19,054 nucleotides of DNA, from assembly GCA_030632405.1 (NCBI GenBank), contig DAOVUU010000006.1, positions 1-19,054 of the forward strand, in the 5' to 3' direction. Position numbers and translations under genes: made by a program. The DNA comes from Desulfobulbaceae bacterium (GTDB taxonomy: Bacteria > Desulfobacterota > Desulfobulbia > Desulfobulbales > Desulfocapsaceae). Positions 1 to 16,116 of this stretch are shown one piece after another (the first letter of the stretch is position 1; the number at the start of each line of letters is the position of its first letter). The notes under the pieces were generated by a model. It did not search any database. It worked only from the letters and a program-made list of their open reading frames with translations, and had not been told where the DNA came from.

Positions 1-147
1 AATAGCGTGAGCCAGCATAGTCTTACCGGTCCCCGGTTCACCCTTTAGCAACAGAGGCATCTCAAGAGCCATAGATATATTCACAATTTTAGCCAGCTCC
101 TGATCAAGGACATATTTTACTGCACCGCTAAATTGATTTAGCTCCAT
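1..147 (-). CDS. MoxR-family AAA+ ATPase, N-terminal part (truncated by window edge)
   Basis: Only the first 49 codons are present; the gene continues beyond the left edge. The reading begins MELNQFSGAVKYVLDQELAK and reaches a Walker A P-loop, GEPGTGKT, at about residues 36-43, then MLAHAI. The stretch MPLLLKGEPGTGKT just before and through the P-loop is typical of MoxR-type AAA+ ATPases, which act as chaperone-like factors in maturation or metal insertion and are often paired with a von Willebrand factor A-domain protein. The ATG start is supported by an AGAAGGA ribosome-binding site seven bases upstream. Walker B, sensor and arginine-finger motifs lie outside the window, so the exact subfamily cannot be fixed. 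The gene points away from the Hdr/Met operon and could be co-transcribed with the small ORF upstream of it. Confidence 0.8.
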   Translation of the reverse strand, partial: MELNQFSGAVKYVLDQELAKIVNISMALEMPLLLKGEPGTGKTMLAHAI

Positions 148-203
148 TTTATTTCCTTCTTTTTCACAAATTTCATCAGTTCTGAAACAAATTTTACGTC
201 CTC

Positions 204-389
204 TTACCTACAAGCAGTGTCAACAGTTCCATCTCGAAAACTTACTTTAAGAACGTTCATACATAAGTACAAGAATCTGAAGTCTCCATAATATATGGCG
301 TAATGCCAATACTCTTCAAAAATTCTCGTACTTCCTCCAACTATTATTGATAAACAGTTTTCCGGTGATACTTTGCCAGAACATATCAC
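204..389 (-). CDS. Possible small protein of 61 residues, function unknown
   Basis: A short reading frame starts with GTG and has a near-ideal ribosome-binding site, AGGAGG, eight bases upstream; that site is the main reason to take it seriously. The product would contain four cysteines and an aromatic-rich middle (EEYWHYAIYYGDFRFLYLC). It has no signal peptide and no recognisable domain. It ends 56 bases before the MoxR-type gene on the same strand, so the two could form one transcript. I do not recognise the family. It may also be a chance ORF in an AT-rich divergent region that happens to follow a purine-rich stretch. Confidence 0.4.
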   Translation of the reverse strand: MICSGKVSPENCLSIIVGGSTRIFEEYWHYAIYYGDFRFLYLCMNVLKVSFRDGTVDTACR

Positions 390-740
390 AACGAAATCCT
401 CCTAACCCTCTTAAAATTAAATATTTATTGGACAAAGATAAAATTTTTTTCACAATTTCCATTATGACAGGAACATCCCGTATTTTTTACCCCCCTGCAT
501 AACGATTGACTTTTAATTTTCCTGATTGTAGATTCTTCGGATTAAGTGAATGGCTCCTCAGTATGAAGTAATTACGTCGCCGACAAGACACTTTGGATAA
601 ATAAATATTTCAACTGGTTACACTTTTCATCGGGAGTAGACTTTATTCATTCTACAAACCCACAATTGGATACTGCTGAACCAAGCAAAGGCAAATTTTT
701 CAACAGTATGAATTTGGATATAAACAGAGGAATAATACCA
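390..740. other. Divergent intergenic region, about 350 bases
   Basis: This AT-rich gap separates the leftward small ORF/MoxR unit from the rightward Hdr/Met operon. I see one plausible sigma-70 promoter (listed separately) and no convincing ORF, tRNA, terminator or long repeat. A reading frame in phase with the downstream Hdr gene is open from 666, but that part (LDTAEPSKGKFFNS and on) has no ribosome-binding site and looks like untranslated leader. Confidence 0.6.
506..534 (+). promoter_or_regulatory. Candidate sigma-70 promoter of the hdr/met operon
   Basis: TTGACT at 506-511 (five of six matches to the -35 consensus) is followed by an exact 17-base spacer and TAGATT at 529-534 (four of six matches to the -10). 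It points toward the operon that begins at 741 and would give a leader of about 200 bases. This is a consensus match only. Confidence 0.4.
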
Positions 741-2063
741 ATGCCAGAAAGTACTATTAAAATCAGAGGAAAGAAGAAAAATTCCTTTCTTGACAAAGTC
801 AAAGAGATTCTTCCTGATGAAGGCAACCTGAGCCTGTGTCTCACCTGTGGCGCCTGTGCTTCAGGCTGTCCGGCAACAGGACTTGAGGATATGGATCCCC
901 GTAAATTTCTACGCCAGTGTGCCATGGGATTGGACGAAGAAGCAGTCAAATCACCCTGGGTATGGATGTGTACCATGTGCCAGCGATGCATATACGTCTG
1001 CCCCATGAAAATTGACATCCCGCAGCTTATTTTCAATGCCCGGGCGGAATGGCCCCGTGAAGACCGTCCTAAAGGTATTAGAGACTCCTGTGATATGGCA
1101 CTGAGAAATGATTCCAACAGTGCTATGGGAACTGCACCCGATGATTTTATCTTTGTTGTTGAGGATGTGCTTGAAGAGTACAGAGAATCCCAACCTGAAT
1201 TCAAAGATATGGTTACTCCCATAGACAAACCGGAGGCCTTCTTTTTTATCAATCAGAACTCCCGTGAACCAGTCACCGAACCGGACGAAATGGTCCCTCT
1301 CTGGAAGATACTTCACCTGGCAGGAGTTGACTGGACCTACGGCAGTAAAGGTTGGGCTGCGGAAAACTACTGCCTTTTCCTTGCAGATGACGAATGCTGG
1401 GAAAAAGTGACACGGGTCTCGGCTAAACAGGCTGATGAACTTGGCTGTAAGGTTTTTCTCAATACCGAATGAGGACACATCACATACTCAGTCCGGGCCG
1501 GACTGAAAAAATTCGAAATTGAACACAAGTTTGAAGTTGCATCTATCTACACTTACTATGCAAAGTGGATCCGTGAGGGCAGGTTGAAGGTAAGTTCCGA
1601 ATGGAACAAAGATCGTAAAATAAAATTCACAATCCAGGATCCATGCCAGATAGTTCGAAAAGGCGAAGGTGACGTGGTAGCTGACGATCTCAGGTTCGTC
1701 ATCCAGTCTGTTGTTGGCAAGGAAAACGTCATTGAAATGACACCAAATAAGTCAAACAACTATTGCTGTGGCGGCGGTGGAGGATTCCTCCAATCCGGTT
1801 TTCCCGAGGAACGCAGGGAATACGGAAAAATCAAGTTTGATCAGATAATGGCCACCGGAGCTGATTACTGCATCACCGGCTGCCACAACTGCCATGCCCA
1901 GGTACATGACATCGGGCATCATTTTGAGGGTACATATGGTACGGTGCATGTGTGGACACTCATCTGTCTGTCACTGGGAATCCTCGGTCCCAATGAAAGA
2001 GCCTATCTTGGCGATGATTTGAAAGATGTAGACGTTTTTCACCCTGAAACATCCATGTTCTAG
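741..2063 (+). CDS. Selenocysteine-containing HdrC/HdrB (HdrD-like) fused Fe-S heterodisulfide reductase subunit
   Basis: Predicted product of 440 residues with UGA (1470-1472) read as Sec244. The N-terminal HdrC-like part has two [4Fe-4S] motifs, CLTCGACASGCP (Cys33-43) and CTMCQRCIYVCP (Cys77-87). The C-terminal HdrB-like part has a complete cysteine-rich CCG motif: Cys302, 39 residues, Cys342-Cys343, 37 residues, Cys381-X2-Cys384. Sec falls in LNTE-U-GH, where relatives carry Cys in an ECGH motif. The frame stays open on both sides of the TGA with no shift, and a hairpin follows it. ATG 741 is chosen because AGAGGA lies nine bases upstream; the frame is open from 666 but lacks a site there. 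As first gene of the operon it probably takes electrons from HdrA. The physiological disulfide or other acceptor is unknown. It resembles the fused HdrD-like proteins of sulfate reducers; an ordinary gene caller would split it into two ORFs. Confidence 0.85.
1470..1506 (+). promoter_or_regulatory. In-frame UGA (Sec) codon and candidate bacterial SECIS hairpin
   Basis: The TGA is followed after 16 bases by a perfect hairpin: CAGTCC (1489-1494), loop GGGCC (1495-1499), GGACTG (1500-1505), extended by a T1488-A1506 pair. The G-rich loop begins 22 bases after the UGA. Bacterial SECIS elements lie inside the coding region just 3' of UGA and present a short apical loop with G residues at about this distance for SelB. 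A strong 6-7 bp stem at this position fits well; SelB binding itself is inferred. Confidence 0.7.
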
Positions 2064-2129
2064 AAATGTATAACATATCCAGGGGAAAACTTTTAACTGG
2101 CATGTTCTGATTTGGAGGGACAAAAGCGT

Positions 2130-3002
2130 ATGAATTTTCAAAAAAAACTAGCTGCAAATGATTTTGTTTTACTGGCCGAAATGCACACCCCGAAGGGAAT
2201 CAATATCTCCAGACTTGTCAATGATGCCCGAAGGATTAAAGGGCGGGTTGATGCTGTAGTGGTCCCCGATATGGACAATGGCATAATGCGAATGAGTGCA
2301 CTTGCCGGATGTGTCCTGATGAAACAGGACGGACTGGAGACTATCATGCACATGTATTGCAGAGATAGGAACCGAATGGCACTCCAGGGGGACGCCCTCG
2401 CCGCTCATGTTCTTGGCTGTCATAATATTATCGTCGCCAACAGTGCAGATATGAGCCAAAGTGACCACAGTGATGCCAAACCAATTGACGATCTCGACGA
2501 GACCCAACTCATAACAACTCTTAAATCACTTGAAAAAGGGAAAGATATGAGTGGATTTGAGCTTGACGGGAGCCCTGATTTTACGATCGGATGCACCATT
2601 CCCGGTTTTGCAGATGCAGACTCAGCAGACAAAGAACTGGCCACAGCAAGAAAGAAAATTGATGCCGGTGCCAGTTTTGTGATTACTCCATCGGTCTTTG
2701 ACATTGAAGACAGTTCAGACTTTCTTGGCAAAGCATCTGAACTTGGAGTCCCCATCATTTCTACCGTCTTTCTTATTAAATCTCTGGCAATAGCACAGTA
2801 TATCAAGAACAGTGAACCAGAGGCAAATATTTCCGAAGACCTTATCCGTCGTATTCGTAAATCTTCAGACAGGGAACAGGAGGGCATCCAGATTGCCGGG
2901 GAAACTATTGCAGCCTTAAAAGACAGAACTCAAGGTGTCCTCATTCAAACATTAGGATGGGAACATAAGATTCCCGAAATTCTTGATGCAGCGGGACTCT
3001 GA
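2130..3002 (+). CDS. MetF-like methylene-tetrahydrofolate reductase paralogue (divergent copy)
   Basis: A 290-residue TIM-barrel protein of the MetF family. ATG 2130 is supported by GGAGGGA nine bases upstream; a TTG at 2112 lies before that site and is unlikely. The N-terminal strand FVLLAEMHTPKG keeps the Glu (Glu17) that aligns with the catalytic glutamate of MetF (SECGPPRG in the second copy). RDRNR and the GWEHKIPEIL end also align with that copy. Differences are notable: the flavin-side region LCLSGDHTKFGDHPMAMNV of the canonical copy is replaced here by IVANSADMSQSDHSDAKPI, and FIGAAANPFADPFE by TIGCTIPGFADAD. It lies between the selenoprotein and hdrA, so it may be a second reductase module, a structural subunit, or a related enzyme acting on another C1-pterin. 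MetF family membership is firm; the exact reaction is not. Confidence 0.75.
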   Translation: MNFQKKLAANDFVLLAEMHTPKGINISRLVNDARRIKGRVDAVVVPDMDNGIMRMSALAGCVLMKQDGLETIMHMYCRDRNRMALQGDALAAHVLGCHNIIVANSADMSQSDHSDAKPIDDLDETQLITTLKSLEKGKDMSGFELDGSPDFTIGCTIPGFADADSADKELATARKKIDAGASFVITPSVFDIEDSSDFLGKASELGVPIISTVFLIKSLAIAQYIKNSEPEANISEDLIRRIRKSSDREQEGIQIAGETIAALKDRTQGVLIQTLGWEHKIPEILDAAGL

Positions 3003-3093
3003 TTTACCGATAACTCTTTTGTCTAGACACTCTCTAAAGATTAATCGATTTTTTCGTTTAACCCTGCTCAATCAGTGACAGGAAAAGGTAACA

Positions 3094-6000
3094 ATGCAGA
3101 ATACAAATAGACCCCAAACTAATAATGACAAGGTTCTTGTCGTCGGTGGAGGCCTTGGTGGAATAAGGACGGCACTCGATCTGGCTGAGGCTGAAAAAAA
3201 TGTTGTTCTCGTTGACAATGATTACACAATCGGCGGGTTAATGACCCAGCTCGACAGAACTTTTCCAACCAATAACTGTGACCTCTGTACCCTTGCCCCT
3301 CACCTTTCAGAGAGTGGTCGCCAGGAATATATTGAATTGATGTCCATGACCAGTGTGCGGAGCATTACCGGTGAAAAGGGCAATTTCACTGTTTCTGTCA
3401 GAACAGAACCACGATATATAAACGAAGACAAATGTACCGCCTGTGGCGCCTGTCATGAACAGTTCCCTGAATGTGTACGATTCACACCCGGACTTGACCA
3501 CAGGGCACCTACGTGCATGCGTTACCCTCAGGCTATTCCCCAGGCTTATTCAATCGACCTTGATAAATGCGAGGATATCGAAGCGTTAGTCAATTGCTGC
3601 CCTGCCGGAGCGATTAACCCTGATGATATGGCTATAAATCGCGAGATCAAATGTGTTTCAGTTGTTCTCTCCCCGGGAGCCGATTTGTTTGACCCAAGCA
3701 AACTTGACTACCTTGGATATTCTACTCTTCCGGATGTGGTCACCAGCCTTGAATATGAGCGCATTCTTTCAGCCTCCGGCCCGACCAATGGAAAGCTCCT
3801 GCGGCCATCAAACGGCACACAGCCTAAAAAAGTTGCATGGATTCAATGCATTGGCTCCAGAGGTATACAGAAGGGAGCTGGTTCTTACTGTTCCAATGCC
3901 TGCTGCATGTTCGCTTTAAAGGAGGCGATTGTCACCAAGGAGCGTTTCCAGGAGGATATAGAAACTACAATTTTCTATATGGATATGAGAACCTTTGGCA
4001 AGGACTATGAGCTCTACCTCGAAAGAGCTAAGGATGATTACGGTGTCCGGTTTCTACGAAGTCGTCCCCACTCCATACTGCAGCAGCTGGGATCTGACGC
4101 ACTGACGATCACCTACACAAAAGACGACAGTACTGAACAGCATATTGAAGATTTTGACATGATAGTGCTCTCAACCGGCTTTAAAACCTCTGAGCAGAGT
4201 CGACAGCTCGCTCTAAACGCCGGGATTGAACTCAATGACAGTCATTTTCCAGTAACCGACGGTTTTAACCCTGTAGCAACCACAAAACCAGGTATCTATG
4301 TAGCGGGCACCTTCGAAAGCCCTAAAGATATCCCGGACACGATGGTCCAGGCCAGTGCTGCCGCCTGTATGGCCGGCAGTGATTTACCTGCCGGTAAAAA
4401 AACAGCCCGAAAAGAAAACAATATCACCACGGAAAGAGATGTCAGTGGTGAAGAACTAAAAGTGGGCGTGTTCATCTGTGACTGTGGAGATAATATTGGC
4501 GGAGTTATAGACGTCGATACACTGGCCAAACGCATACAGGACCTTGACAATGTTGCCATCGCAATATCTGAAGGCCATGGCTGCAGCCGTGTTTCGATGG
4601 AACATATTCGTAAGACTATAGAGGAAGAGAACCTTAACAGAGTGGTTATCGGGGCCTGTTCACCACGTACTCACCTGAGCAAATTCCAGGAGCTCATCCG
4701 AAAGGCCGGACTCAACAAATATCTTGTTGAAATTGCAAATATCAGGGATCAGGCTACGTGGGTTCATTCGAACCAGCCTGAAAATGCGACCAGTAAAGCA
4801 TATGATCTTATTAAAATGGCTATCGCATCCGTAACCAAAGCACAACCGCTGGTTGATCAGAGCCTGCCCATTAACAAGAATATCCTTGTTGTTGGTGGCG
4901 GTATCAGCGGAATGACATCTGCTTTAAGACTTGCCGATCAAGGCTTCCAGGTTTACCTGGCCGAGAAATCTGATACCCTCGGGGGTGTTGCAAAAAACAT
5001 ATTCAAAACGCTGGAGGGTGACAACGTCCAGACGTTCATTGCTGACCTGACCAATAAAGTGGAAAATCACGAATATATTCAGGTTATTACCAGGGCAATT
5101 ATTGTAGATCACTCCGGTATGCCTGGAATGTTTAAAACCGGCATGCAGGTTGGCCCGCAAATGTTCTACAGACAAATAGAGCATGGCGTCACAGTTCTGG
5201 CAACAGGTGCAATCCCTAATCCGACAAAGGAGTATGCACTCGAATCCTGTAATGCGGTCATGACTCAGCTGGAAACCCAGAAAGTCGTGAACCAGACTCC
5301 GGATATTGTCAAAAAATGGGATAACGTAGTCATGATCCAATGTGTCGGTTCAAGAATCCCTGACAATCCCAACTGTTCCAGAATATGCTGCCAGACGGCG
5401 ATTAAAAACTCACTTGCCATCCTTGAGATTAACCCTGACGCCCGTATCTTTGTTCTCTACCGAGATATGAGGACTTACGGTTTCCAGGAAGAGTATTACC
5501 AGAAGGCACGGGAGAAAGGCGTTATTTTCGTTCGATACAGTAAAGACAGTCCACCGTCAGTCAATCCGGCAGGCAACCAGGTTGAGGTAACTTTCACCGA
5601 TGTAATTCTTGGTCAAAAAGTGACTGTTACAGCCGATAACCTCTGTCTGAGTACAGGACTTGTTGCAGACAATGACTCTTCAGAGGAACTCGCAATGATC
5701 TTCAAACTGCCGCGTACTGCAGACGGGTACTTTCTTGAAGATCATGTCAAGCTGAGACCTGTAGACATGCCTGTTCCCGGATTCTTTGTTGCCGGTACAG
5801 CTCATTCACCAAAACTTATAAAAGAATCCATATCACAAGCCAACGCCGTTGCGGCCAGGGCGCAAACTATGCTCGCCAGGGATTCAATCAACCTCGGAGC
5901 TGCTGCTGCCAGGGTGGACAGTAAACTCTGCGCCTCATGTCTCATCTGTGTAAGGGCATGCCCGTTTGATGTTCCATTTATCAACGCCGACGGCTATTCA

Positions 6001-6138
6001 GAAATTGATCCTGCCAAGTGTCACGGTTGTGGAATGTGTGTGTCTGAATGTCCTGCAAAAGCAATACAGCTTATGCAGTTTGAAGATGATAAGATTCTCG
6101 CTCAATTGGAAGAAATTTTTGATAAGGTAAATGCATAA
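3094..6138 (+). CDS. hdrA: HdrA-type flavin/Fe-S electron-bifurcating subunit with two FAD modules
   Basis: Product of 1014 residues, well above the roughly 650 of methanogen HdrA. Module 1 begins with a dinucleotide-binding GGGLGG at residues 18-23, then FPTNNCDLC (Cys62, Cys65) and a ferredoxin-like Cys-rich insert from about 114 (CTACGAC). The middle, from about 450, carries the HdrA-type GVFICDCGDNIGG and GACSPRTHL segments. Module 2 has a second VVGGGISG at about 600-606. Two C-terminal [4Fe-4S] motifs follow, CASCLICVRACP (from Cys946) and CHGCGMCVSECP (from Cys976). HdrA is the flavin subunit that splits or merges electron pairs between a low-potential carrier (ferredoxin) and higher-potential partners. 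The start follows GGAAAAGG. Its stop overlaps the mvhD start by one base, implying coupled translation. The N-terminal module is a duplicate or QmoB-like extension; its exact role is inferred. Confidence 0.9.
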   Translation: MQNTNRPQTNNDKVLVVGGGLGGIRTALDLAEAEKNVVLVDNDYTIGGLMTQLDRTFPTNNCDLCTLAPHLSESGRQEYIELMSMTSVRSITGEKGNFTVSVRTEPRYINEDKCTACGACHEQFPECVRFTPGLDHRAPTCMRYPQAIPQAYSIDLDKCEDIEALVNCCPAGAINPDDMAINREIKCVSVVLSPGADLFDPSKLDYLGYSTLPDVVTSLEYERILSASGPTNGKLLRPSNGTQPKKVAWIQCIGSRGIQKGAGSYCSNACCMFALKEAIVTKERFQEDIETTIFYMDMRTFGKDYELYLERAKDDYGVRFLRSRPHSILQQLGSDALTITYTKDDSTEQHIEDFDMIVLSTGFKTSEQSRQLALNAGIELNDSHFPVTDGFNPVATTKPGIYVAGTFESPKDIPDTMVQASAAACMAGSDLPAGKKTARKENNITTERDVSGEELKVGVFICDCGDNIGGVIDVDTLAKRIQDLDNVAIAISEGHGCSRVSMEHIRKTIEEENLNRVVIGACSPRTHLSKFQELIRKAGLNKYLVEIANIRDQATWVHSNQPENATSKAYDLIKMAIASVTKAQPLVDQSLPINKNILVVGGGISGMTSALRLADQGFQVYLAEKSDTLGGVAKNIFKTLEGDNVQTFIADLTNKVENHEYIQVITRAIIVDHSGMPGMFKTGMQVGPQMFYRQIEHGVTVLATGAIPNPTKEYALESCNAVMTQLETQKVVNQTPDIVKKWDNVVMIQCVGSRIPDNPNCSRICCQTAIKNSLAILEINPDARIFVLYRDMRTYGFQEEYYQKAREKGVIFVRYSKDSPPSVNPAGNQVEVTFTDVILGQKVTVTADNLCLSTGLVADNDSSEELAMIFKLPRTADGYFLEDHVKLRPVDMPVPGFFVAGTAHSPKLIKESISQANAVAARAQTMLARDSINLGAAAARVDSKLCASCLICVRACPFDVPFINADGYSEIDPAKCHGCGMCVSECPAKAIQLMQFEDDKILAQLEEIFDKVNA

Positions 6139-6560
6139 TGAAAAAATTTGAACCGGTAATTGTAGCCTTTTGCTGCCACTACTGTGCATACACAGCTGCG
6201 GACATGGCCGGAAGCCAACGGCTTCCATATCCTGCTAATGTCAAAATCATCCGAGTCCCATGCTCTGGTAAAGTAGATGCACTGCATATTATCAAAGCAT
6301 TTGAAAATGGAGCAGATGGTGTTTACGTCGCTGGATGCCTTGAGGGAGACTGCCACTTTAAAAATGGTAATGAAAAGGCAGCTCGCAGGATTGATTATGT
6401 CAAAAAATACCTGGAAGAGATCGGTATTGAAAGTGAAAGACTTACAATGGTAACGATGTCTGCCGGAATGGGGTACCGTTTTGCCCAGACCGCAACAGAG
6501 ATAACCGAAAAAATCCGTAAGCTCGGTCCCAGTCCGATTAAAACCGCGATAACTCAATAA
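6138..6560 (+). CDS. mvhD: MvhD-type [2Fe-2S] electron-transfer subunit
   Basis: A 140-residue protein of the methyl-viologen-reducing hydrogenase delta (MvhD/FrhD) family, close to full family length. It has the family cysteines: FCCHYCAY (Cys12, Cys13, Cys16), VPCSGKVD (Cys42), and AGCLEGDCHF (Cys67, Cys72). MvhD normally links HdrA to an electron donor or acceptor module such as a hydrogenase or formate dehydrogenase. No such partner is encoded in the window, so here it more likely bridges HdrA to MetV/MetF or to an enzyme encoded elsewhere. The start ATG overlaps the hdrA stop (TAATG). Some relatives in this phylum carry selenocysteine at a conserved Cys; this copy uses only Cys. Confidence 0.9.
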   Translation: MKKFEPVIVAFCCHYCAYTAADMAGSQRLPYPANVKIIRVPCSGKVDALHIIKAFENGADGVYVAGCLEGDCHFKNGNEKAARRIDYVKKYLEEIGIESERLTMVTMSAGMGYRFAQTATEITEKIRKLGPSPIKTAITQ

Positions 6561-6606
6561 ACAGGAAACACCTGATGGTAAAAATATGAAAGGAGAATAA
6601 AACCCA

Positions 6607-7275
6607 ATGATTACTGCTGAACGAAAACCCTTAGAAGAACTCATTGACTATGTCAAACCATTTAAGCGTATTCTCCTGCTCGGTTGTAACGAGTGCGTGA
6701 CAGTCTGTGCTGCTGGTGGACGAAAAGAGGTGGGACTTCTCGCCTCCGGCCTGCAGATGGCCCTGTTGAAAAGTGGCAGCAATATAGAAATCAAACAACA
6801 TACACTGGAACGGCAGTGTGATCCGGAATACGTCGAAGAACTCGTTCCCATGATCGATGGTTCCGAGGCTATCTTGTCCATGGCCTGCGGTTGTGGCGTG
6901 CAGCAGCTTGCAACACGATTTAAGGACAAACCTGTTTTTCCGGCACTTAACACCCAATTCATGGGTGCCTCGGAACGTCAGGGAGTCTGGGCTGAGAGAT
7001 GTCAGGGTTGTGGCGACTGTGTACTTGGTATAACCGGGGGAATCTGTCCGATTGCGCGTTGTGCAAAACAGTTGATGAACGGTCCCTGTGGCGGTTCGAC
7101 AGGCGGAAAATGTGAAGTAAGCGAAGATGTAGATTGTGTCTGGCAATTGATATGGGACCGGCTCAAGTCCCTCGGCCAGGAAGATCGTTATGTAGATATC
7201 ATGCCTGCAAAAGATTGGAGATCCGGCGGTGGCAGCGGTCCAAGAAAGATTATCAGAGAGGATTTGGCAGAATGA
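6607..7275 (+). CDS. metV: MetV, Fe-S/zinc partner of methylene-tetrahydrofolate reductase
   Basis: A 222-residue protein of the MetV family, the Cys-rich partner that forms the MetVF heterodimer in acetogens such as Moorella. The N-terminal half has LLLGCNECVTVC (Cys27, Cys30, Cys34) and MACGCGVQQL. The C-terminal half has CQGCGDCVLGITGGICPIARC followed by NGPCGG, the signature of the MTHF-reductase C-terminal Cys-rich domain. It probably shuttles electrons between the Hdr/Mvh module and the flavin of MetF. AAGGAG precedes the start at a slightly long 11-base spacing. The stop overlaps the start of metF (ATGA), so the two are translationally coupled, as expected for partners made in equal amounts. 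Confidence 0.9.
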   Translation: MITAERKPLEELIDYVKPFKRILLLGCNECVTVCAAGGRKEVGLLASGLQMALLKSGSNIEIKQHTLERQCDPEYVEELVPMIDGSEAILSMACGCGVQQLATRFKDKPVFPALNTQFMGASERQGVWAERCQGCGDCVLGITGGICPIARCAKQLMNGPCGGSTGGKCEVSEDVDCVWQLIWDRLKSLGQEDRYVDIMPAKDWRSGGGSGPRKIIREDLAE

Positions 7276-8195
7276 AAACTGAAAGCAAATTAGAGAAAAT
7301 ATTAGCAGCCGGCCATCTGGCAGTCACCTCCGAATGTGGTCCTCCACGTGGGGCTCTTCCTGATCAAGTAAGAGAAAAAGCAGCTTACCTGAAAGGAGTA
7401 GTAGACGCAATAAACGTGACTGACAATCAGACAGCTATGGTACGTATGTCCAGTCTTGCCGCCTCCACCATAATCAAACAGGAAGGTTTAAACCCGGTTC
7501 TGCAGGTCGTATCCCGTGACCGCAACAGGCTGGCAATACAGGCTGACATTATCGGTGCATATGCCCTGGGCATTGATACCATGCTCTGCTTATCCGGTGA
7601 TCATACCAAGTTTGGAGATCATCCCATGGCAATGAACGTCCATGATATTGATTCTATGCAGATGATACAGATGGTCCGGGACATGCGTGACAAAGAGATA
7701 TTTCAAGGCGGAGCCAAGTTAAAAGGTGCACCGAAAATGTTTATCGGTGCCGCAGCGAATCCATTCGCCGACCCCTTTGAACTGCGAGTCCTTCGTCTTG
7801 AAAAGAAAATTAATGCAGGTGTTGATTTTATCCAGACCCAATGTATTTTTAACGTTGAAAAATTTGAGAGATGGATGGAAGGAGTTCGAGCCCGTGGATT
7901 GCATAAAAAATGTTACATCCTGGCAGGTGTAACTCCCTGCAAATCTCTTGGCGCAGCCCGCTATATGTCTAACAGAGTTCCGGGAATGGATGTACCCAAA
8001 GACATAATCGAACGTATGAGTTCCGTTCCAAAAGAAAAACAGGCCGACGAAGGTGTTGATATCTGTATTGAAACTATTAAACGATTGAAAAAGGTTGAAG
8101 GAGTTGCGGGGTTTCATATAATGGCGATTGAATGGGAAGAAAAAGTAGAAGAAATTTGTGAAAGAGCAGGACTTCTTCCCCGCCCTCAGATATAA
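7272..8195 (+). CDS. metF: MetF, 5,10-methylene-tetrahydrofolate reductase
   Basis: A 307-residue flavin-dependent TIM-barrel enzyme that interconverts methylene- and methyl-tetrahydrofolate in the methyl branch of the Wood-Ljungdahl pathway. The catalytic glutamate is Glu21 (TSECGPPRG). Family segments visible are TDNQTAMVRMSS, SRDRNRLAIQ, LSGDHTKFGDHP, GAAANPFADP and FIQTQCIFN. The frame is open upstream to 7134, inside metV, but the start at 7272 overlaps the metV stop as ATGA and the family N-terminus begins right there, so I use 7272. Together with MetV it should be the reductase proper of the complex, with electrons passing through MvhD and HdrA. No strong terminator is seen before the receiver gene 48 bases downstream. 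Confidence 0.92.
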   Translation: MKTESKLEKILAAGHLAVTSECGPPRGALPDQVREKAAYLKGVVDAINVTDNQTAMVRMSSLAASTIIKQEGLNPVLQVVSRDRNRLAIQADIIGAYALGIDTMLCLSGDHTKFGDHPMAMNVHDIDSMQMIQMVRDMRDKEIFQGGAKLKGAPKMFIGAAANPFADPFELRVLRLEKKINAGVDFIQTQCIFNVEKFERWMEGVRARGLHKKCYILAGVTPCKSLGAARYMSNRVPGMDVPKDIIERMSSVPKEKQADEGVDICIETIKRLKKVEGVAGFHIMAIEWEEKVEEICERAGLLPRPQI

Positions 8196-8243
8196 AAAGA
8201 TTCGAATTTTAATCCAATAACGATTGATGGAGGAACGTAGAAC

Positions 8244-8627
8244 ATGAGCAACGATCAACTTATTCTTGTCGTAGATGATGATACAGATCTCGTGGAAATG
8301 GTCTCTATGAAGCTTGAAAGTGAAAATTTTCGTGTTGCTAAGGCTTATGATGGCGTGGAGGCTATGGATAAAATCAAGGCTGAACGCCCTGCCCTGATAA
8401 TCCTCGACGTAATGATGCCAAGGAAAGATGGTTATACCCTATGTGACGAATTAAAAACTTCTGATGACTATAAAGATATTGTTGTGGTCCTGTTAACTGC
8501 AGTGACCGAAGCTATCTCGTCGACTAACTATACCCATATGGGTGGGAAAACAACTTTGGCGGATGACTTTGTCACCAAGCCTATCGACCTGGATAAACTC
8601 ATGGAGATTGTTAAAGACAATCTCTAA
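8244..8627 (+). CDS. Stand-alone response-regulator receiver protein (CheY-like)
   Basis: A 127-residue single receiver domain with the full active site: acidic pocket VVDDD (Asp11-13), phospho-acceptor Asp55 in LDVMMP, the switch Thr85 in LLTA, and Lys112 in TKP. No output domain is present, so it must act through a protein partner. GGAGGA lies nine bases before ATG. It begins 48 bases after metF and may be read from the same operon, or as the first gene of the signalling block. The histidine kinase at 9910 is the nearest possible phospho-donor. The loop before the conserved Lys (THMGGKTTLADDF) is longer than in CheY. Its target is unknown. Confidence 0.88.
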   Translation: MSNDQLILVVDDDTDLVEMVSMKLESENFRVAKAYDGVEAMDKIKAERPALIILDVMMPRKDGYTLCDELKTSDDYKDIVVVLLTAVTEAISSTNYTHMGGKTTLADDFVTKPIDLDKLMEIVKDNL

Positions 8628-8702
8628 AAATCAGCCTTCTATCCCTCTTTCTTGAGTTGGGGCCTACCGGGATATCTAAAATCATCTATTGGATAAAACT
8701 CA

Positions 8703-8748
8703 GGTAATGCTTTACCAGACTCTGGGTTAGTCGAAACCCATTGAAGGG
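8703..8748 (+). other. Possible structured leader with alternative hairpins
   Basis: The 169-base gap before the first ACT-like gene holds two small perfect hairpins: GGTAA-TGCT-TTACC (8703-8716) and GGGTT-AGTCGA-AACCC (8724-8739). The ACCC of the second can instead pair with GGGT at 8745-8748, so two exclusive folds are possible. No T-run follows, so it is not a classic terminator. The stems are short and may be chance. Confidence 0.2.
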
Positions 8749-8796
8749 TGTTTCCGATTGACTTGGACAAAGAGAGCAGGATAAGAGAAATACCCA

Positions 8797-9333
8797 GTGG
8801 AAATTGTTTTGTCTAAGGAGAGTCCAAAAATATCGATCGGTGGTATCAAATTCAGTGAGAAACTGACACATATTTCTCTTGTTAAAGATACAGCCGAGGA
8901 CTCTTCTATCGATGATTTGCTTCGTCTTCTTGCCAAAAGAAGAATTAATATCCCCTTTTTATGTCACTCGTCAACTCTCTATGCCAGTCAAAGAAGCTGT
9001 TTCTGTGTCAGCTGTGAAAATTTTCCAGGTGTGCTGAGCCTGCTGAATTTTTCATCGTTTAGCAATCTGAACATAAAGGTTGTTCCTGCAGTTGGGACAA
9101 TTACTCTTTTCCCACACAAGAACAGTTTTCAACTGCTTGGCCAGATAATCCAAACCTTTGGTAAATTTAACATCCCCATCTATTCGATGAGTAGTTCCAT
9201 TTCAGCAATAGCTCTCAACACTGATTTTACAAGTCTTGATATGGTGGCTGAAAACCTGCAGGGAGTAACGTCCCTTCCCGAAAACCATGCACCATTTCGC
9301 CAAGAATTCTGCCTGAAAGAGCTGCACCGATAA
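8797..9333 (+). CDS. ACT-domain protein resembling the regulatory part of aspartokinase
   Basis: A 178-residue protein with no catalytic motif that I can see. The pattern of short hydrophobic strands, a helix beginning FPGVLSLLN, and the C-terminal FGKFNIPIYSMSSSISAIALN followed by SLDMVAENL resembles the tandem ACT domains that bind effectors in aspartokinase. This call rests on pattern resemblance, not a search. The GTG start at 8797 has only a distant AGGA; AAGGAG at 8815-8820 lies just inside the frame with no ATG, GTG or TTG at the right distance, so the true start is uncertain (an ATA at 8830 would be correctly spaced). It is followed after 10 bases by a second protein of similar type, suggesting a pair. 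Lying between a receiver protein and a histidine kinase, it could be an effector-sensing regulator. Confidence 0.6.
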   Translation: MEIVLSKESPKISIGGIKFSEKLTHISLVKDTAEDSSIDDLLRLLAKRRINIPFLCHSSTLYASQRSCFCVSCENFPGVLSLLNFSSFSNLNIKVVPAVGTITLFPHKNSFQLLGQIIQTFGKFNIPIYSMSSSISAIALNTDFTSLDMVAENLQGVTSLPENHAPFRQEFCLKELHR

Positions 9334-9343
9334 AAGTTAGTCC

Positions 9344-9859
9344 GTGGAGAACATTTTGGAAACAATTGCGGTATACTGGGAATCCAAGGTTAAGGTGTAC
9401 AGCATCACTCACGTCACCGATCTGTCTCTGATCAACCTCGCATTTCCCATAAAGGCCACTGAAGAATTAGGAAAAGCACTCATGGATCTGGAAGATTCTG
9501 TCCAGCGCTTTGAGTTGGTTACACAGGATTATGTTAACTCCACGCTCTGCCAGATGAATCTTTTTTATGACCAGTCTAAACAGGAAAATGCAGAAAAGAG
9601 AATGAGGAAATGGGCTGAAAAGATGCAGGCTACAGTCACATCAGTTTCACATTTAGAGCTGATCTACCTGCATGGCCCACATTTTCAAGAGAGATTCGGT
9701 ATCGTCGATATTGTTTTTTCTGCATTCAAAGATGATAACATTAAAATTATCACAGCAGGGTGTGCCGGAACCACTATTTATCTGGCAGTACCAGATAAAA
9801 CTGCAGTCCCCGCTACCCGGATCTTACGACAAAAGTTTATTATTCCAGCTACTGTCTGA
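9344..9859 (+). CDS. Second ACT-like protein, paired with the upstream one
   Basis: About 171 residues, without recognisable catalytic motifs. The C-terminal third (LELIYLHGPHFQERFGIVDIVFSAF, in part) matches the strand-turn-helix pattern at the start of an ACT domain, followed by DDNIKIITAGCAGTTIYLAV and TAVPATRILRQKF, the second strand pair and helix. The N-terminal half has a strand, a helix and a charged segment (QSKQENAEKRMRKWAEK). The GTG at 9344 has no good ribosome-binding site, whereas TTG at 9356 has GGAG six bases upstream and may be the real start. It begins 10 bases after its neighbour and the two probably work together, perhaps as a heterodimer. The ligand is unknown. Confidence 0.55.
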   Translation: MENILETIAVYWESKVKVYSITHVTDLSLINLAFPIKATEELGKALMDLEDSVQRFELVTQDYVNSTLCQMNLFYDQSKQENAEKRMRKWAEKMQATVTSVSHLELIYLHGPHFQERFGIVDIVFSAFKDDNIKIITAGCAGTTIYLAVPDKTAVPATRILRQKFIIPATV

Positions 9860-9909
9860 CAATCTCGTAAAACTTAAGTAAATAGCAGTTACCTTAACCT
9901 ACAGAACAT

Positions 9910-11451
9910 ATGCATATGATGAACAGTATTTCCAGCTCCTCTGATATGGGCGACTGGAAAGGACGTGTCTTCGACTCACTCTCTTTCCCAACGCTTATCC
10001 TCAAACCGGACAGAACAATAATAGCAGCCAATCTCAAATTCTTCGAGAGAACCGGTATGGCCGAAGCTCAGGTGATAGGCAAAACCTGCAAACAGATTTT
10101 TTTTGAAAATGAGGATCCCGAAAAATTTCCCTGCAATGGGACCAATTGCACCCTGCACAAATGTATCACACAGAAAAATGCCCAATCTATAGTTTTAAAA
10201 GAAGTTCACAGCAATAATGATCAAACCTGGGAGGAACGTGTTTTTTCACCAATTTTAAACGATGTCGGAGATGTCAGTTATGTAATTGAAAGCCTGCGTG
10301 ATATTACGAAGGTCAAAACCCTCGAAAAAAAATACAGTGATGTCCGTCAACTCATTGACAAGGTGGTTCAAAGTTCGGTGAGTGGTATTCTGGCAGCTGA
10401 TCGTAAAGGCGAAATTATTCTCATGAACGAAGCAGCAGAAAACCTCTTCGGATACACTGTTGAAAATGCCAATAAAGTTAACATAGAAGATTTTTATCCA
10501 CCCGGTATTGCCCGTAAAATAATGAAGAGCCTGCGCGATGAAAACTATGGAGAAAAAGGTAAACTGCCTGTAACAAAACTTAATATCCTCACCAAAGCAC
10601 AGCAGGAGATACCTGTAGAGATGACAGCGGCAATTATTTACGAAGATGGCAATGAGACCGCAACTGCGGCAATCTTCAATGATCTTCGAGAAAAATATGC
10701 TGTGCAGAAAAAACTTGAAGAAGCCGAAATACAACTTTACCAATCTGAAAAACTGGCCTCTCTTGGCAGATTGGCAGCCGGTGTTGCCCATGAGATCAAT
10801 AATCCTCTGACCTCAATACTTTTATACGGTAATCTCATGCAGGAGAAGCTGGAAGAAAATCATCCTCTGGAAGAAAATCTAAAATATATGATTGAGGATG
10901 CCGAACGATGCAGAGAGATTGTTAAAAATTTACTGGCATACAGCCGCCAGACACGACCCTCCAAAGATATTTTTTATTTAAACGATCTAGTTGGGGAAAG
11001 TCTGCGCCTGATCCGGGACCAGAAACTGTTTATGAATGTGAAGGTAGTAAAAGAACTGGATCCTCAGCAGATTCTTGTAAACGCCGATAAAAATCAGCTC
11101 TGCCAGGTTGTTATCAATCTTATTATAAATGCCTTTGATGCCATGGAGAGCAGCGGTACTCTCACCCTCAGAACCCACCGAACTCCCGAGAATGGTACGG
11201 CATTCCTGGAGGTCAGCGATACTGGTGGAGGCATACCACCGGAGAATATTTCAAAAATATTTGACCCGTTTTTCACCACAAAAGAAATCGGCAAAGGAAC
11301 GGGCCTGGGACTTAGTATGGCGTATGGCATAATGGAGGAGAACCAGGGCAAAATATCCATAGAAGACACCGGGCCGGATGGAACAACCATACGCCTCGAA
11401 CTTCCCGAAGAAAACGTTTCAAACGAGTTCCATTTCGGTTCCATTGGCTGA
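9910..11451 (+). CDS. Soluble PAS-PAS histidine kinase (NtrB-type)
   Basis: A 513-residue sensor kinase with no membrane segment. The first PAS-like domain (about 15-135) includes a cluster of four cysteines, Cys60, Cys75, Cys80 and Cys85 (PCNGTNCTLHKC), which could bind an Fe-S cluster or metal or act as a redox switch. The second PAS covers about 145-265. The HisKA domain has phospho-acceptor His294 in GVAHEINNPL, and the HATPase domain shows the N box NLIINAFDAM, DTGGGIP, FDPFFTTK and GTGLGLS. The start is not certain: ATG at 9910, 9916 and 9919 are all in frame and none has a good ribosome-binding site. It lies 50 bases after the ACT-like pair. With the receiver protein at 8244 it could form a redox-sensing phosphorelay tied to the C1/Hdr genes. 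Confidence 0.9.
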   Translation: MHMMNSISSSSDMGDWKGRVFDSLSFPTLILKPDRTIIAANLKFFERTGMAEAQVIGKTCKQIFFENEDPEKFPCNGTNCTLHKCITQKNAQSIVLKEVHSNNDQTWEERVFSPILNDVGDVSYVIESLRDITKVKTLEKKYSDVRQLIDKVVQSSVSGILAADRKGEIILMNEAAENLFGYTVENANKVNIEDFYPPGIARKIMKSLRDENYGEKGKLPVTKLNILTKAQQEIPVEMTAAIIYEDGNETATAAIFNDLREKYAVQKKLEEAEIQLYQSEKLASLGRLAAGVAHEINNPLTSILLYGNLMQEKLEENHPLEENLKYMIEDAERCREIVKNLLAYSRQTRPSKDIFYLNDLVGESLRLIRDQKLFMNVKVVKELDPQQILVNADKNQLCQVVINLIINAFDAMESSGTLTLRTHRTPENGTAFLEVSDTGGGIPPENISKIFDPFFTTKEIGKGTGLGLSMAYGIMEENQGKISIEDTGPDGTTIRLELPEENVSNEFHFGSIG

Positions 11452-11682
11452 ATTTGATACTTCTTAAACAAAACCGCAGAGAATAATTGTAAAAACCGAC
11501 TACTGGCACACGATTTTTCTTTACAAATACGGCCGTTAAACGTTAGAACTACTACAATATTTTCCTCTGCAAGCACAGTATTTCAGGAAGTTTTTTACTT
11601 AGCCATCCAATATTTAAGGTTTTTACGAGTTTGTCAAAAAATATATTTAAAAAAATAAAACTGAGGGTATAAAGATTTAAAT

Positions 11683-13404
11683 ATGAATATCAATATACTG
11701 TTAGGTTTAGCTGGTATTATCTGTTTTATTGGCCTGTTTCTTCGTTTATCGATCTGGTTTTCTCAAGAACTTCATCGCCCGGCAATTCCTGTAACAGCCA
11801 GCCAACGGGTTTTAAATTCAATACAATCATTATTTACAACACTTTTCAGCTCCAGAATTATCCTTGTTATAAAATCTCTTTTTGTCGATCTCCTGTTTCA
11901 AAAGCGCATCTTTGACAAAAGCTACCTTCGCTGGACGGCCCATACACTTATCTTTTTTGGATTTATCATGCTGTTGCTTATGCATGCACTGGATTCGATG
12001 GTCATGGATAGATTCTTCAGTGACTATGAATCCACCCTCAACCCCTATCTCTTTTTACGTAATCTATTCGGGATCATGGTCCTTGCAGGACTGGCTCTTG
12101 CGGTCTTCAGGAGAATTTCTCTGAAGCCACAGAGGCTGAAAACCTATCCAAGTGACTGGGCAGCGCTTATTTTCATTGCTGTCATCATCTTTTCCGGCAT
12201 GATTCTGGAGGGCGCCAGAATTTCCTCCTACACTATCTACCAGAACATGGTTGAAGAGTATGGCTCTTTTGATGAAATGGAAGCTAACGCTCTGGAGGCG
12301 TTCTGGGTGCAGGAAAACGGCCTTAACTCCCCGAACTTGACAAAACCTCAACCAGATGAACGCGTCGCTTTTGGTATGGAGGTCAACGGTGACAGTTGTA
12401 TTGAGTGTCATGCACCAAACAGTTCCGCCTTTGCCAGTTTCGCAGTAAAAAATGTAACCAGGTCCATATCTGCTGCAATTGGCGACAGCCAGGCTGTCAG
12501 CATGTTCTGGTATCTGCATATACTGGCATGTCTCTCTTTCCTTGCCTGGCTCCCGTTCAGTAAAATGTTCCACATAGTAGCGGCTCCCGTCAGCCTTATC
12601 ATCAAAGGAATTGTAGGTGATAAAACCGAACAGCCTGCTACCCTTTTAACTCATCAGATGATTGGTCTCTCCGCATGCACCCACTGTGGTTCCTGTTCTA
12701 TCGAATGCTCCTCAAACATGTTTTTTGAATCTTTTCAAAATGATTTCATCCTGCCTTCCGAGAAAGTGCAGTCACTAAAAGACTACGCAGCTGGCAAGAT
12801 TACTGATAGGAAGGAGCTCAAACAATTGCAGCAGGGACTTTATGTATGCACCAGTTGTGACCGGTGCACCGATGTCTGTCCTTCGGGGATCAACCTCAAA
12901 GAAATATTTGTTTCAGCAAGATACAGCCTGCTCAATGAGGGAATACCTGAAGTTTCAATGCTCAGCCATTTTTCTTTCCCCCTGGCTCTTGCCCAGAATT
13001 TTGTTGGAGACCATATTAAGGCTCTTAAAACTGTGACAAAACTTTTCCAGAAAAGTTTCAAGCAACTATCAGAGCTTAGCTTCCCGATGACATTAACAAA
13101 GAGTGATGATATTGGAAACAACAGTTACAAAAGTTGTTTCTCCTGTCAGCGCTGCACAAATATATGCCCTGTTGTGCGTAGTTTTGATAACCCTGGTGAA
13201 GCCTTGGGCCTGCTTCCCCATCAAATAATATTCAGTCTTGGACTGGGAAATACAGATCTTGCAATGGGTTCCAAGATGATCTGGAGTTGTTCTACCTGTT
13301 ATCTCTGTCAGGAGCATTGCCCAAATGATGTTGAATTGTGTGATATTTTTTATAGTTTGAAAAATAGTGCTCTTAATAAAATAGAGACAGGAGTTAGCTC
13401 ATGA
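11683..13404 (+). CDS. Membrane cytochrome b-like / haem c / double HdrC fusion protein
   Basis: A 573-residue polytopic protein. Hydrophobic segments lie near residues 5-22, 85-108, 122-145, 160-180 and 270-300, with histidines (WTAHTLIF, MHALD, WYLHILAC, FHIVAAP) suited to NarI/DsrM-type b-haem ligation. Between the last two segments a CIECH motif (Cys239, Cys242, His243) indicates a covalently bound haem c, presumably on the periplasmic side. The soluble C-terminal part carries four CX2CX2CX3C-type motifs, at Cys332, Cys389, Cys485 and Cys536, arranged as two HdrC-like pairs; the pairs may come from duplication. The stop overlaps the next gene, an HdrB, by four bases (ATGA). The pair is a candidate transmembrane Hdr complex moving electrons between quinone or periplasmic cytochrome and a cytoplasmic CCG site. 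The ribosome-binding site is weak (GAGGG, 15 bases upstream). Confidence 0.82.
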   Translation: MNINILLGLAGIICFIGLFLRLSIWFSQELHRPAIPVTASQRVLNSIQSLFTTLFSSRIILVIKSLFVDLLFQKRIFDKSYLRWTAHTLIFFGFIMLLLMHALDSMVMDRFFSDYESTLNPYLFLRNLFGIMVLAGLALAVFRRISLKPQRLKTYPSDWAALIFIAVIIFSGMILEGARISSYTIYQNMVEEYGSFDEMEANALEAFWVQENGLNSPNLTKPQPDERVAFGMEVNGDSCIECHAPNSSAFASFAVKNVTRSISAAIGDSQAVSMFWYLHILACLSFLAWLPFSKMFHIVAAPVSLIIKGIVGDKTEQPATLLTHQMIGLSACTHCGSCSIECSSNMFFESFQNDFILPSEKVQSLKDYAAGKITDRKELKQLQQGLYVCTSCDRCTDVCPSGINLKEIFVSARYSLLNEGIPEVSMLSHFSFPLALAQNFVGDHIKALKTVTKLFQKSFKQLSELSFPMTLTKSDDIGNNSYKSCFSCQRCTNICPVVRSFDNPGEALGLLPHQIIFSLGLGNTDLAMGSKMIWSCSTCYLCQEHCPNDVELCDIFYSLKNSALNKIETGVSS

Positions 13405-14327
13405 AATATGCCTTTTTTCAGGGTTGTAACATACCTATCCGCATTGAACAGTACGCCAGCGCAACCAGAGCAATATTCAATAAATTTGATGTTGCACTGC
13501 AAATAATACCCGAATTCAACTGCTGCGGTTATCCCGTCCGCAATGTTGACGAAAAAGCCTATATTCTACCTTCTGTCAGAAACATGGCTATCGCTGAAAG
13601 GGCCGAACTCGATATACTGGTCATTTGTAACTGCTGTTTTGCCAGTCTTCAAAAAGCCAGAAAAGTGTTAAGTGACAACAGTCAACTAAGAGAAGAACTC
13701 AATGCAATTCTTGCCAAAGAAGGTCTGCAATACAGAGGAAAAACAAAGGTAAAACACTATTTAACTGTTCTGCATGAAGACATCGGCACCGACCGGATTA
13801 AGAGCAAACTTGTCAATAAATTCAAAGATCTCCGGCTTGCAGTGATTCATGGATGTCACATACTTCGTCCTCGAGAAATAACTCAATTTGACGACTCTTT
13901 TGTTCCTGCCATAACAGAAAATCTCATGAAGACTGCCGGCATCAACAACCTTGACTGGCAAGGGAAGCTGGAATGCTGCGGTGCTGCACTGGCTGGCATT
14001 AATGATGAACTGTCCCACTCACTGTTAAAAGATAAAATCACCGGTGCTCTGGGCGCCGGTGCGGAATTTATTTCCCCCATCTGCTCCTATTGTCACCTGC
14101 AGTTTGATACAGCACAGAAAAATCTCCCTCAGGACAGAGAAAACAAAAAACTCCTTCCGGTTCTTCTCTATCCTCAATTGCTCGGCCTCTGTCTCGGTAT
14201 CGATGAAAAAACACTCGGAATTGCGCAAAACAGTACCATCGAACCGGAAGATATTGAGCGACTTAAATCACTGCTCGGGCCTCCTGTTGAAGAAAAAAAG
14301 AGAAGGAGAAAAAAAGCAACCGCTTAG
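13401..14327 (+). CDS. hdrB: HdrB-type heterodisulfide reductase catalytic subunit
   Basis: A 308-residue cytoplasmic protein with two complete cysteine-rich CCG motifs, the ligands of the non-cubane [4Fe-4S] pair where HdrB reduces a disulfide. Motif 1: Cys9, 31 residues, Cys41-Cys42, 33 residues, Cys76-X2-Cys79. Motif 2: Cys152, 39 residues, Cys192-Cys193, 34 residues, Cys228-X2-Cys231. No cysteine is missing, so activity is expected. Length is close to the usual 290-300, plus a very basic tail (EEKKRRRKKATA) that could contact membrane lipid or RNA. It is translationally coupled to the membrane HdrC-like protein and ends before a strong terminator. Sulfate reducers lack the methanogen CoM-S-S-CoB, so the substrate is another disulfide or a protein partner. 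Confidence 0.9.
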   Translation: MKYAFFQGCNIPIRIEQYASATRAIFNKFDVALQIIPEFNCCGYPVRNVDEKAYILPSVRNMAIAERAELDILVICNCCFASLQKARKVLSDNSQLREELNAILAKEGLQYRGKTKVKHYLTVLHEDIGTDRIKSKLVNKFKDLRLAVIHGCHILRPREITQFDDSFVPAITENLMKTAGINNLDWQGKLECCGAALAGINDELSHSLLKDKITGALGAGAEFISPICSYCHLQFDTAQKNLPQDRENKKLLPVLLYPQLLGLCLGIDEKTLGIAQNSTIEPEDIERLKSLLGPPVEEKKRRRKKATA

Positions 14328-14365
14328 GAAATAGGGTTCTCTTTTATTTTTTTCTTTTGGCACTC

Positions 14366-14403
14366 AACCACCTCGATATTATATGAATCGGGGTGGTTTT
14401 TTT
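14366..14403 (+). terminator. Rho-independent terminator after hdrB
   Basis: AACCACCTCGAT (14366-14377) pairs with ATCGGGGTGGTT (14387-14398) through 12 positions with one T-G wobble, around a nine-base loop, followed by a T-run to 14403. It closes the membrane Hdr unit and isolates it from cooC. Confidence 0.9.
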
Positions 14404-14484
14404 CTTTCCAATCCTTTAACAATGCTTACTTTCTTATGCATTTAGTACCTTCAGGCAAGCATAAAACTAACCCACACGTGCATT

Positions 14485-14513
14485 TTGCCAGGGGATAAAA
14501 CATCATTTATACA
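14485..14513 (+). promoter_or_regulatory. Candidate sigma-70 promoter of cooC
   Basis: TTGCCA (14485-14490; five of six -35 matches), a 17-base spacer, then TATACA (14508-14513; four of six -10 matches). It lies between the hdrB terminator and the cooC start at 14536, which would give a very short leader that still includes the GGAGAGAT ribosome-binding site. Confidence 0.5.
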
Positions 14514-14535
14514 AGACTACTAATCGGAGAGATTT

Positions 14536-15294: not shown

Positions 15295-15304
15295 ACTTTC
15301 CAGC

Positions 15305-15341
15305 AAAATAGGTGGGAAGAATGATTCTTTCCATCTATTTT
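15305..15341 (+). terminator. Long hairpin terminator after cooC
   Basis: A 17-bp stem with a three-base TGA loop: AAAATAGGTGGGAAGAA (15305-15321) pairs with TTCTTTCCATCTATTTT (15325-15341), with only two G-T wobbles. The A-tract before and T-tract after allow termination on either strand. It lies 10 bases after the cooC stop. Confidence 0.8.
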
Positions 15342-15357
15342 ACCGCTCTCTTTCTTT

Positions 15358-16095: not shown

Positions 16096-16116
16096 TCTCA
16101 AGTACGTTTCATCCCT

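Follow-up and report, generated by a model that had tools for sequence, protein, structure and literature searches.

A predicted selenocysteine-containing HdrC/HdrB fusion subunit at the head of a MetF–HdrA–MvhD–MetV operon in a Desulfobulbaceae bacterium

The coupling partner of methyl-tetrahydrofolate (methyl-THF) oxidation, or of methylene-THF reduction, is a standing question, and for Moorella it had yet to be examined in 2018 whether HdrABC employs a second electron acceptor (PMC6295475; here and below, papers cited by accession are represented by parts of their text). The same question, now involving selenium, is raised by a 19,054-nt stretch of DNA from a Desulfobulbaceae bacterium (Desulfocapsaceae in the GTDB lineage; assembly GCA_030632405.1, contig DAOVUU010000006.1, positions 1–19,054), the whole of which is referred to as the window. 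Its frame at 741–2063 encodes an HdrD-like fusion of HdrC and HdrB, related to DsrK and TmcB, which is interrupted by one TGA and followed by genes for MetF, HdrA, MvhD and MetV. Is this TGA read as selenocysteine (Sec), with which partners would the product work, and what would Sec do there?

One reading frame across an in-frame UGA

The frame contains two stops only, TGA at 1470–1472 (codon 244) and TAG at 2061 (codon 441). With the former taken as Sec, residues 243–246 read E-U-G-H and the product comprises 440 residues, or roughly 50 kDa, which agrees with the first-pass annotation of a single TGA within an otherwise complete fused HdrC/HdrB protein. At the base composition of the window, the chance of 196 further open codons is about 9e-6. 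The start at 741 matches the N-termini of the homologues P0003 and L141, with AGAGGA nine bases upstream. This gene, its hairpin and cluster motifs and the five genes of the operon after it lie on the forward strand.

Alignment with Cys-containing homologues supported the assignment, as residue 244 is Cys, within an ECGH motif, in 120 of the 120 homologues listed (the best 120 of 2372, proteins below 0.55 of the query length being left out). At the DNA level, TGA occupies codon 244 in 110 of 111 loci. These comprise the window locus, the paralogous locus L002, 29 loci from a search of the order (L027–L055) and the best 80 of 155 relatives (L056–L135), all 80 of which are on GTDB genome contigs and carry TGA; the latter two sets derive partly from the same genomes and the 110 TGA loci are thus not all independent. 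The order-wide search of 257 genomes gave matches (E up to 1e-60) in at least 108, and among those listed, each of the 38 near-full-length matches at 81–100% identity carried one in-frame TGA. At this residue, twenty further loci, picked to show both forms and including nine already known to carry TGA, had either TGA (9) or a Cys codon (11), even where identity was as low as 35%. Cultured species also carry the operon, among them Desulforhopalus singaporensis (L065), Desulfopila aestuarii (L066), Desulfofustis glycolicus (L080) and Desulfosediminicola flagellatus (L063), as well as Desulfonema magnum (L089), in which the genes are ordered differently. By record name, carriers include members of Desulfocapsaceae, Desulfobulbaceae, Desulfobacteraceae, Desulfosarcinaceae, Desulfococcaceae and Desulfohalobiaceae, and TGA-bearing orthologues (L107, L125) occur in a metagenome-assembled genome (MAG) of Olavius Delta 1. 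Since the TGA is conserved at the same codon across these relatives, a sequencing error or a chance stop was ruled out.

The only locus of the 111 without TGA, L002 (G000:C125), has TGC instead. It encodes a Cys paralogue with ECGH and 60% identity, truncated by a contig end, in the same genome bin as the window (2.67 Mb, 421 contigs, 72.7% complete), and is a possible selenium-free stand-in.

In a quick tree of 141 rows, which included every third of the 120 Cys proteins (40 in all) and carries a warning of long branches that meet at the outgroups, 84 Sec rows clustered together, with two Cys rows among them and a support of only 88, adjoining a large Cys group. Five Sec/Cys changes were required in all, compared with a mean of 42 for shuffled labels.

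Bacterial selenocysteine insertion sequence (SECIS) elements place their loop 16–37 nt after the UGA and have a G among the first two loop bases. A hairpin of this type lies within the coding sequence at 1488–1506, with an eight-pair stem (1488–1495/1499–1506), the loop GGC (1496–1498) 23 nt after the UGA, and a folding energy of -12 kcal/mol. Each of the 89 distinct Sec sequences had a candidate following the rule, always 22–23 nt after the TGA; of the 12 Cys sequences, 8 had one, at varying positions. Mean hairpin energies were -10.7 for 14 of the 89 Sec sequences, versus -1.5 after codon shuffling, and -5.6 for the 12 Cys sequences, versus -3.3. Energy by itself is a weak test: hairpins of -7 or better were present in 5 of the 12 Cys sequences, scattered at 17–35 nt, and two of the 89 Sec sequences had hairpins weaker than -7. 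The two groups are told apart by the fixed place of the hairpin (22–23 nt, 89/89) together with its covariation. With each distinct 45-base sequence counted once (n = 77), 94.6% of cells were paired and 37 cells had changed on both sides, and none of 500 shuffles matched the percentage paired, the number of cells changed on both sides or the covariation score. Shifting the partner by one column reduced pairing to 36–45%. Two other measures did not rise above chance, namely the 4 pairs in which both sides had changed, a number reached in 101 of 500 shuffles, and the 9 further pair types, reached in 182 of 500. The outermost pair was unpaired in 28 of the 77 sequences. The region after the TGA, which had been singled out for a SECIS check, thus holds a bacterial-type hairpin with compensatory changes among relatives, and by comparison this hairpin would direct the decoding of UGA 1470–1472 as Sec.

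The alternative is genuine termination at the TGA, with an HdrC-like and a CCG-like protein made separately. Standard ORF calling does yield two ORFs, as the first-pass annotation had foreseen, and the second has an available start at 1584. Initiation there, however, would omit residues 245–281, where relatives conserve several residues, and the identical codon in 110 of 111 loci, the conserved hairpin and the single chains of the Cys homologues likewise speak against two proteins, which leaves this alternative extremely improbable. On sequence comparison, it is close to certain that 741–2063 is a selenoprotein gene with UGA 1470–1472 read as Sec. Gene prediction seems to divide such genes in two, since the best of the 120 listed protein hits, from the search limited to proteins of at least 0.55 of the query length, is 70% identical, whereas orthologues at 95% identity are encoded in available DNA.

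A second recoding event was also considered, namely Sec plus a UAG-coded residue in one protein, for seven listed matches with both TGA and TAG (five at 67–69% identity and two at 37%). It was rejected for three of the five at 67–69%, in which TAG falls at residue 433 and is the normal end.

Known relatives and the MetVF-type operon

Sec in such a protein is not new, as the family is already in print. A selenoprotein family termed 'Fe-S oxidoreductase-like protein', with the motif UGH, is listed in a 2026 review (PMC13188914), and GlpC (Fe-S oxidoreductase) selenoproteins appear in PMC9312934 and, by 2006, in PMC1794560. The first-pass statement that selenoproteins of Hdr and Fe-S oxidoreductase type are known in Desulfobacterota agrees with these papers. 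The window gene is taken to be a member of the UGH-type GlpC family; it combines the U-G-H motif, Cys homologues at the Sec position and a bacterial-type hairpin after the UGA; it also shares with these selenoproteins an origin in Desulfobacterota and the neighbours HdrA and FrhD/MvhD. The published glpC-hdrA-frhD-frhG-frhA operon includes as many as four selenoproteins, together with a hydrogenase (PMC1794560), whereas the Sec gene of the window is accompanied by MetF, MetV and a second MetF, and HdrA and MvhD are free of TGA. By its description, the selenoprotein HdrD4 of Desulfobacterium autotrophicum HRM2 (PMC2702500) is similar, being a soluble selenoprotein with HdrC and HdrB domains from a sulfate reducer with the Wood-Ljungdahl pathway, and a marine deltaproteobacterial MAG lists Sec-containing 'Fe-S oxidoreductase' and 'heterodisulfide reductase' (PMC8318568). 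The best-scoring named families were TmcB (156.4 bits), HmcF (152.4 bits) and DsrK (96.1 bits), all far below their respective cut-offs of 735, 750 and 400 bits, and these proteins have Cys rather than Sec. The ECGH motif in the first CCG half is shared with DsrK, as found by aligning DsrK of the bin and of genome G128.

The Sec gene heads an operon of six. It is followed by MetF1 (2130–3002; methylene-THF reductase-like; Pfam MTHFR, 2.3e-24; start by inspection), the FAD/Fe-S subunit HdrA (3094–6138; 1014 residues; NCBIfam HdrA2, 832 bits against a cut-off of 1100), the electron-entry subunit MvhD/FlpD (6138–6560; Pfam FlpD, 2.2e-52), the MetF partner and Fe-S protein MetV (6607–7275; Pfam DUF5981, 'methylene-tetrahydrofolate reductase C terminal', 3.8e-38) and the methylene-THF reductase MetF2 (7272–8195; Pfam MTHFR, 2.5e-39 for the longer ORF; start by inspection), whose start overlaps the metV stop. 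None of the five has an in-frame TGA, and HdrA and MvhD have no in-frame stop of any kind and no Sec. Separate HdrB and HdrC genes are absent from the operon, the fused gene at 741–2063 being present instead; the HdrB of the window (13401–14327) is found 5 kb past MetF2, adjoining a membrane protein.

Recurrence of this setting was assessed in the 80 loci that represent the best 80 of 155 relatives. The identical five-gene order follows the Sec gene in 27 of the 80, and many others are cut by contig ends. Within 9.5 kb and on the same strand, HdrA, MvhD and MetV were present in 46 and HdrA plus MvhD in 55; in the 41 loci whose flanks both reach 5 kb or more, the corresponding numbers were 24 and 30. 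The Sec-first order is represented by the 27 loci, mostly of Desulfobulbales-type records but including L083, L084 and L087, which are named as Desulfobacterales. The order HdrA-MvhD-Sec-MetV-MetF occurs in L089, L093, L108, L109, L111, L123 and L146–L148 and, as far as its contig reaches, in L096, and the Sec gene comes last in, for example, L126, L132 and L133. In the distant Sec forms (groups at 52% and 35% identity; six loci), HdrA and MvhD likewise lie downstream. The five partner genes were all absent from the surroundings of 12 Cys loci, namely L136–L145 and L155, taken from more numerous Cys matches, and L002, although the flanks of L002 (2.5 kb in all) and of L136 and L137 (<1 kb on one side) are short. 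The MetVF/HdrA/MvhD setting noted at the outset is therefore real and recurrent in relatives, and since the partners recur in several gene orders, a shared complex is favoured over chance linkage.

L103 and L118 have the Sec gene followed to its right by two tandem HdrA-MvhD pairs. The operon also carries two MetF paralogues, and MetF1, set apart from MetV, recurs in the 27 loci of the same order.

The closest described system is MetVF-HdrABC-MvhD of Moorella thermoacetica (PMC6085437, PMC6295475), in which MetV, MetF, HdrA and MvhD are likewise encoded together. Here, in contrast, HdrB and HdrC are not separate but are replaced by a single fused DsrK/TmcB-like Sec subunit, the first CCG half of which is degraded, and a second MetF is present. 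HdrABC is also encoded beside metF in Seep-SRB1g (PMC10553843). As judged from the recurrent gene neighbourhood, the Sec subunit very probably replaces HdrBC in a MetVF complex. A search of titles and abstract openings, with supplements and most subscription papers outside its reach, retrieved no publication joining a Sec-containing HdrD/GlpC subunit with MetF or MetV, and the parts of PMC8691401 and PMC5109826 covered hold nothing on this combination. This agrees with the first-pass view that a Sec subunit as the first gene of a methylene-THF reductase operon is less described. By comparison, the gene thus encodes a genuine and conserved member of a selenoprotein family already known, and no description was found of its recurrent partnership with MetVF.

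Cluster ligands and the proposed role of Sec244

Before the TGA, the HdrC-like part contains a 4Fe-4S dicluster domain (residues 30–91; Pfam Fer4_8, E 5.7e-9), with two ligand sets, C33, C36, C39, C43 and C77, C80, C83, C87 (837–1001), that are Cys in all 120 listed homologues. After it, residues 297–388 give the sole CCG match (Pfam PF02754, E 1e-11), and positions 280–414 profile-match residues 131–270 of HdrB (5odc_B). This second CCG half holds the expected site of a noncubane 4Fe-4S cluster, C302, C342, C343, C381 and C384 (1644–1892), and was intact as the first-pass annotation stated: residues 302, 342, 381 and 384 are Cys in 120 of 120 listed homologues and 343 in 119, with one gap.

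The first CCG half is different. It has no CC pair and retains only C211, C236 and U244 as conserved positions; the alignment bore out that Sec replaces the Cys of ECGH in this degenerate half. Ligands were counted over 83 Sec rows, 50 Cys rows and the 52% and 35% groups, leaving out L115, whose frame gave a 206-residue piece. C211 is kept in 83/83 Sec rows, 50/50 Cys rows and 3/3 of the 52% group but is Gly in DsrK and in all four members of the 35% group, three of them with Sec, although the Cys or Sec at 244 is retained in both. C236 is kept in 72/83 Sec rows, 50/50 Cys rows and 4/4 of the 35% group. By spacing, the other ligand places of this half are occupied by N/S (173/174) and mostly by I, V, E or S (247). 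The Cys or Sec at 244 is the only first-half Cys position kept in every row counted, DsrK included. The protein thus lacks the two complete CCG motifs of a catalytic HdrB with two noncubane clusters, and its first half seems to keep too few Cys for a cluster of its own. Sec244 is for this reason less likely to be the ligand of such a cluster than an orphan selenol. Of the two roles suggested initially, cluster ligand or redox thiol, a selenol beside the cluster of the second half is favoured and ligation of an own cluster is the less likely one.

We propose the following scheme. The fused subunit would stand in for HdrB and HdrC in a MetVF-HdrA-MvhD complex, and electrons would pass between methyl-/methylene-THF at MetVF and MvhD/HdrA (FAD), and then by way of the two cubane clusters to a single noncubane cluster, with C302, C342, C343, C381, C384 and perhaps H246 as its ligands. 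Sec244 would act as a selenol nucleophile or transient ligand that splits or forms a disulfide or trisulfide of a thiol partner. This last role is suggested because the segment corresponds to that holding the ligands of the other noncubane cluster of HdrB, and it is put forward tentatively, as something that may well be otherwise. The likeliest thiol partner in these sulfate reducers would be DsrC, an assignment that is possible but rather doubtful; the bin encodes DsrC with both C-terminal Cys, and CCG domains of TmcB/HdrB type are predicted to meet DsrC (PMC10553843). Taken as a whole, a selenoprotein in a MetVF-HdrA-MvhD complex, with a selenol beside one cluster and a thiol partner, is probably the correct explanation.

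Several observations weigh against it. The register of U244 relative to HdrB is uncertain by about two residues, and the widely kept C236 has no role in the scheme. The invariant H246 aligns by motif with His583 of Mycobacterium smegmatis EtfD (PDB 9ojn), a membrane protein with ETF as partner and 17% identity, in which His583 completes the coordination of the noncubane cluster and makes it non-catalytic (PMC13083937); by this match, the subunit may only carry electrons. HdrA plus MvhD were not near in 11 of the 41 wide-flank Sec loci, and L110, a full-length Sec orthologue (9244–10566), has no HdrA, MvhD or MetV, nor any other of the partners, in reach. As to selenium metabolism in the 72.7%-complete bin, selA gave no match, no tRNA-Sec was above the cut-off (best 40.3 vs 47) and the selB part scores below the cut-off of its family.

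The missing selA and selC we attribute to incompleteness. The bin does encode selD above cut-off, which carries an in-frame TGA of its own in CGUAAK, and part of selB, an ORF incomplete at the stretch end that matches SelB 225–581 with 89.9 bits (the cut-off of 242 being for the whole family). The same-genus genome G119 (one contig, 95% complete) has both selA (634.6 bits) and tRNA-Sec (74.9 bits), and among six relatives tRNA-Sec was above cut-off in five and selA in two. Of the sel genes for which the first-pass annotation advised a search, selD and the C-terminal part of selB were consequently recovered from the bin itself, and selA and tRNA-Sec from G119 instead.

Two single-contig genomes from the same family, G126 and G127, speak against incompleteness as the full answer: they have tRNA-Sec (75.9 and 75.4 bits) and TGA-containing relatives of the Sec gene, yet also lack a selA match. 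No selA was detected in them by the family model or by the SelA of a relative, and 19.5 kb around their tRNA-Sec (L187, L188) held no SelA or SelB match. The gene may have been missed, or these genomes may make Sec-tRNA by a different route.

The EtfD comparison leads to a different function, in which Sec244 would be a permanent Fe-S ligand, of a noncubane or linear cluster, that tunes its potential while the subunit only conducts electrons. The first half of EtfD holds a linear [3Fe-4S] cluster with Cys581 as ligand (PMC13083937), and by our motif mapping Cys581 and His583 correspond to U244 and H246. C211 would leave a second possible first-half ligand, and C236 is present in most sequences. 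Such a cluster would nonetheless be short of ligands, given the residues present at 173/174 and at 247, and C211 becomes Gly in the 35% group and DsrK while U/C244 stays, so that we regard permanent ligation as rather unlikely.

A further possibility is a Sec244-Cys211 selenenylsulfide/dithiol centre beside the cluster, as in ferredoxin-thioredoxin reductase. It would account for the invariance of C211 in the Sec rows, the Cys rows and the 52% group, and by spacing both places bind one cluster in HdrB/EtfD. The Gly at 211 in the Sec-bearing 35% group, and in DsrK, weakens the pair as a general mechanism, and we consider it unlikely here.

Finally, the Sec subunit could be an electron outlet that merely shares the MetVF transcript and works with another HdrA. 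The 11 wide-flank loci without HdrA plus MvhD and the isolated gene of L110 would fit, but the partners reappear together in more than one gene order, and this arrangement appears improbable.

If the proposed complex is formed, these sulfate reducers have a Sec-containing DsrK-like subunit in place of the HdrBC part, which would indicate a definite partner class, a thiol/disulfide protein. The bin and two of three relatives encode an acetyl-CoA synthase-type protein of the CdhC family, which fits a Wood-Ljungdahl pathway that may run towards methyl-group formation or oxidation. Selenium supply could limit this pathway if the complex carries it. A bolder version is that MetVF-HdrA-MvhD and the Sec subunit link methyl-THF to a DsrC disulfide or trisulfide, one Sec replacing a whole noncubane cluster of HdrB. 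We hold this to be doubtful, although it remains compatible with DsrC and the acetyl-CoA synthase-type protein in the bin and with a site that is the ECGH of DsrK; if true, a selenium-dependent enzyme would tie the one-carbon pathway directly to sulfite reduction.

Genes beyond the operon

Four genes follow MetF2 at 8244–11451, namely a response regulator, a PAS histidine kinase and two ORFs, one lacking any Pfam match and the other weakly ACT-like at its end. All of them recur downstream in 24 of the 27 same-operon loci and perhaps sense the one-carbon state. At 11683–14327, a membrane NarI/double-Fer4 protein precedes the two-CCG HdrB mentioned above, perhaps as a quinone-linked HdrDE-like pair. 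An ATPase gene near this pair (14536–15294) was read as CooC-like, a label of our own.
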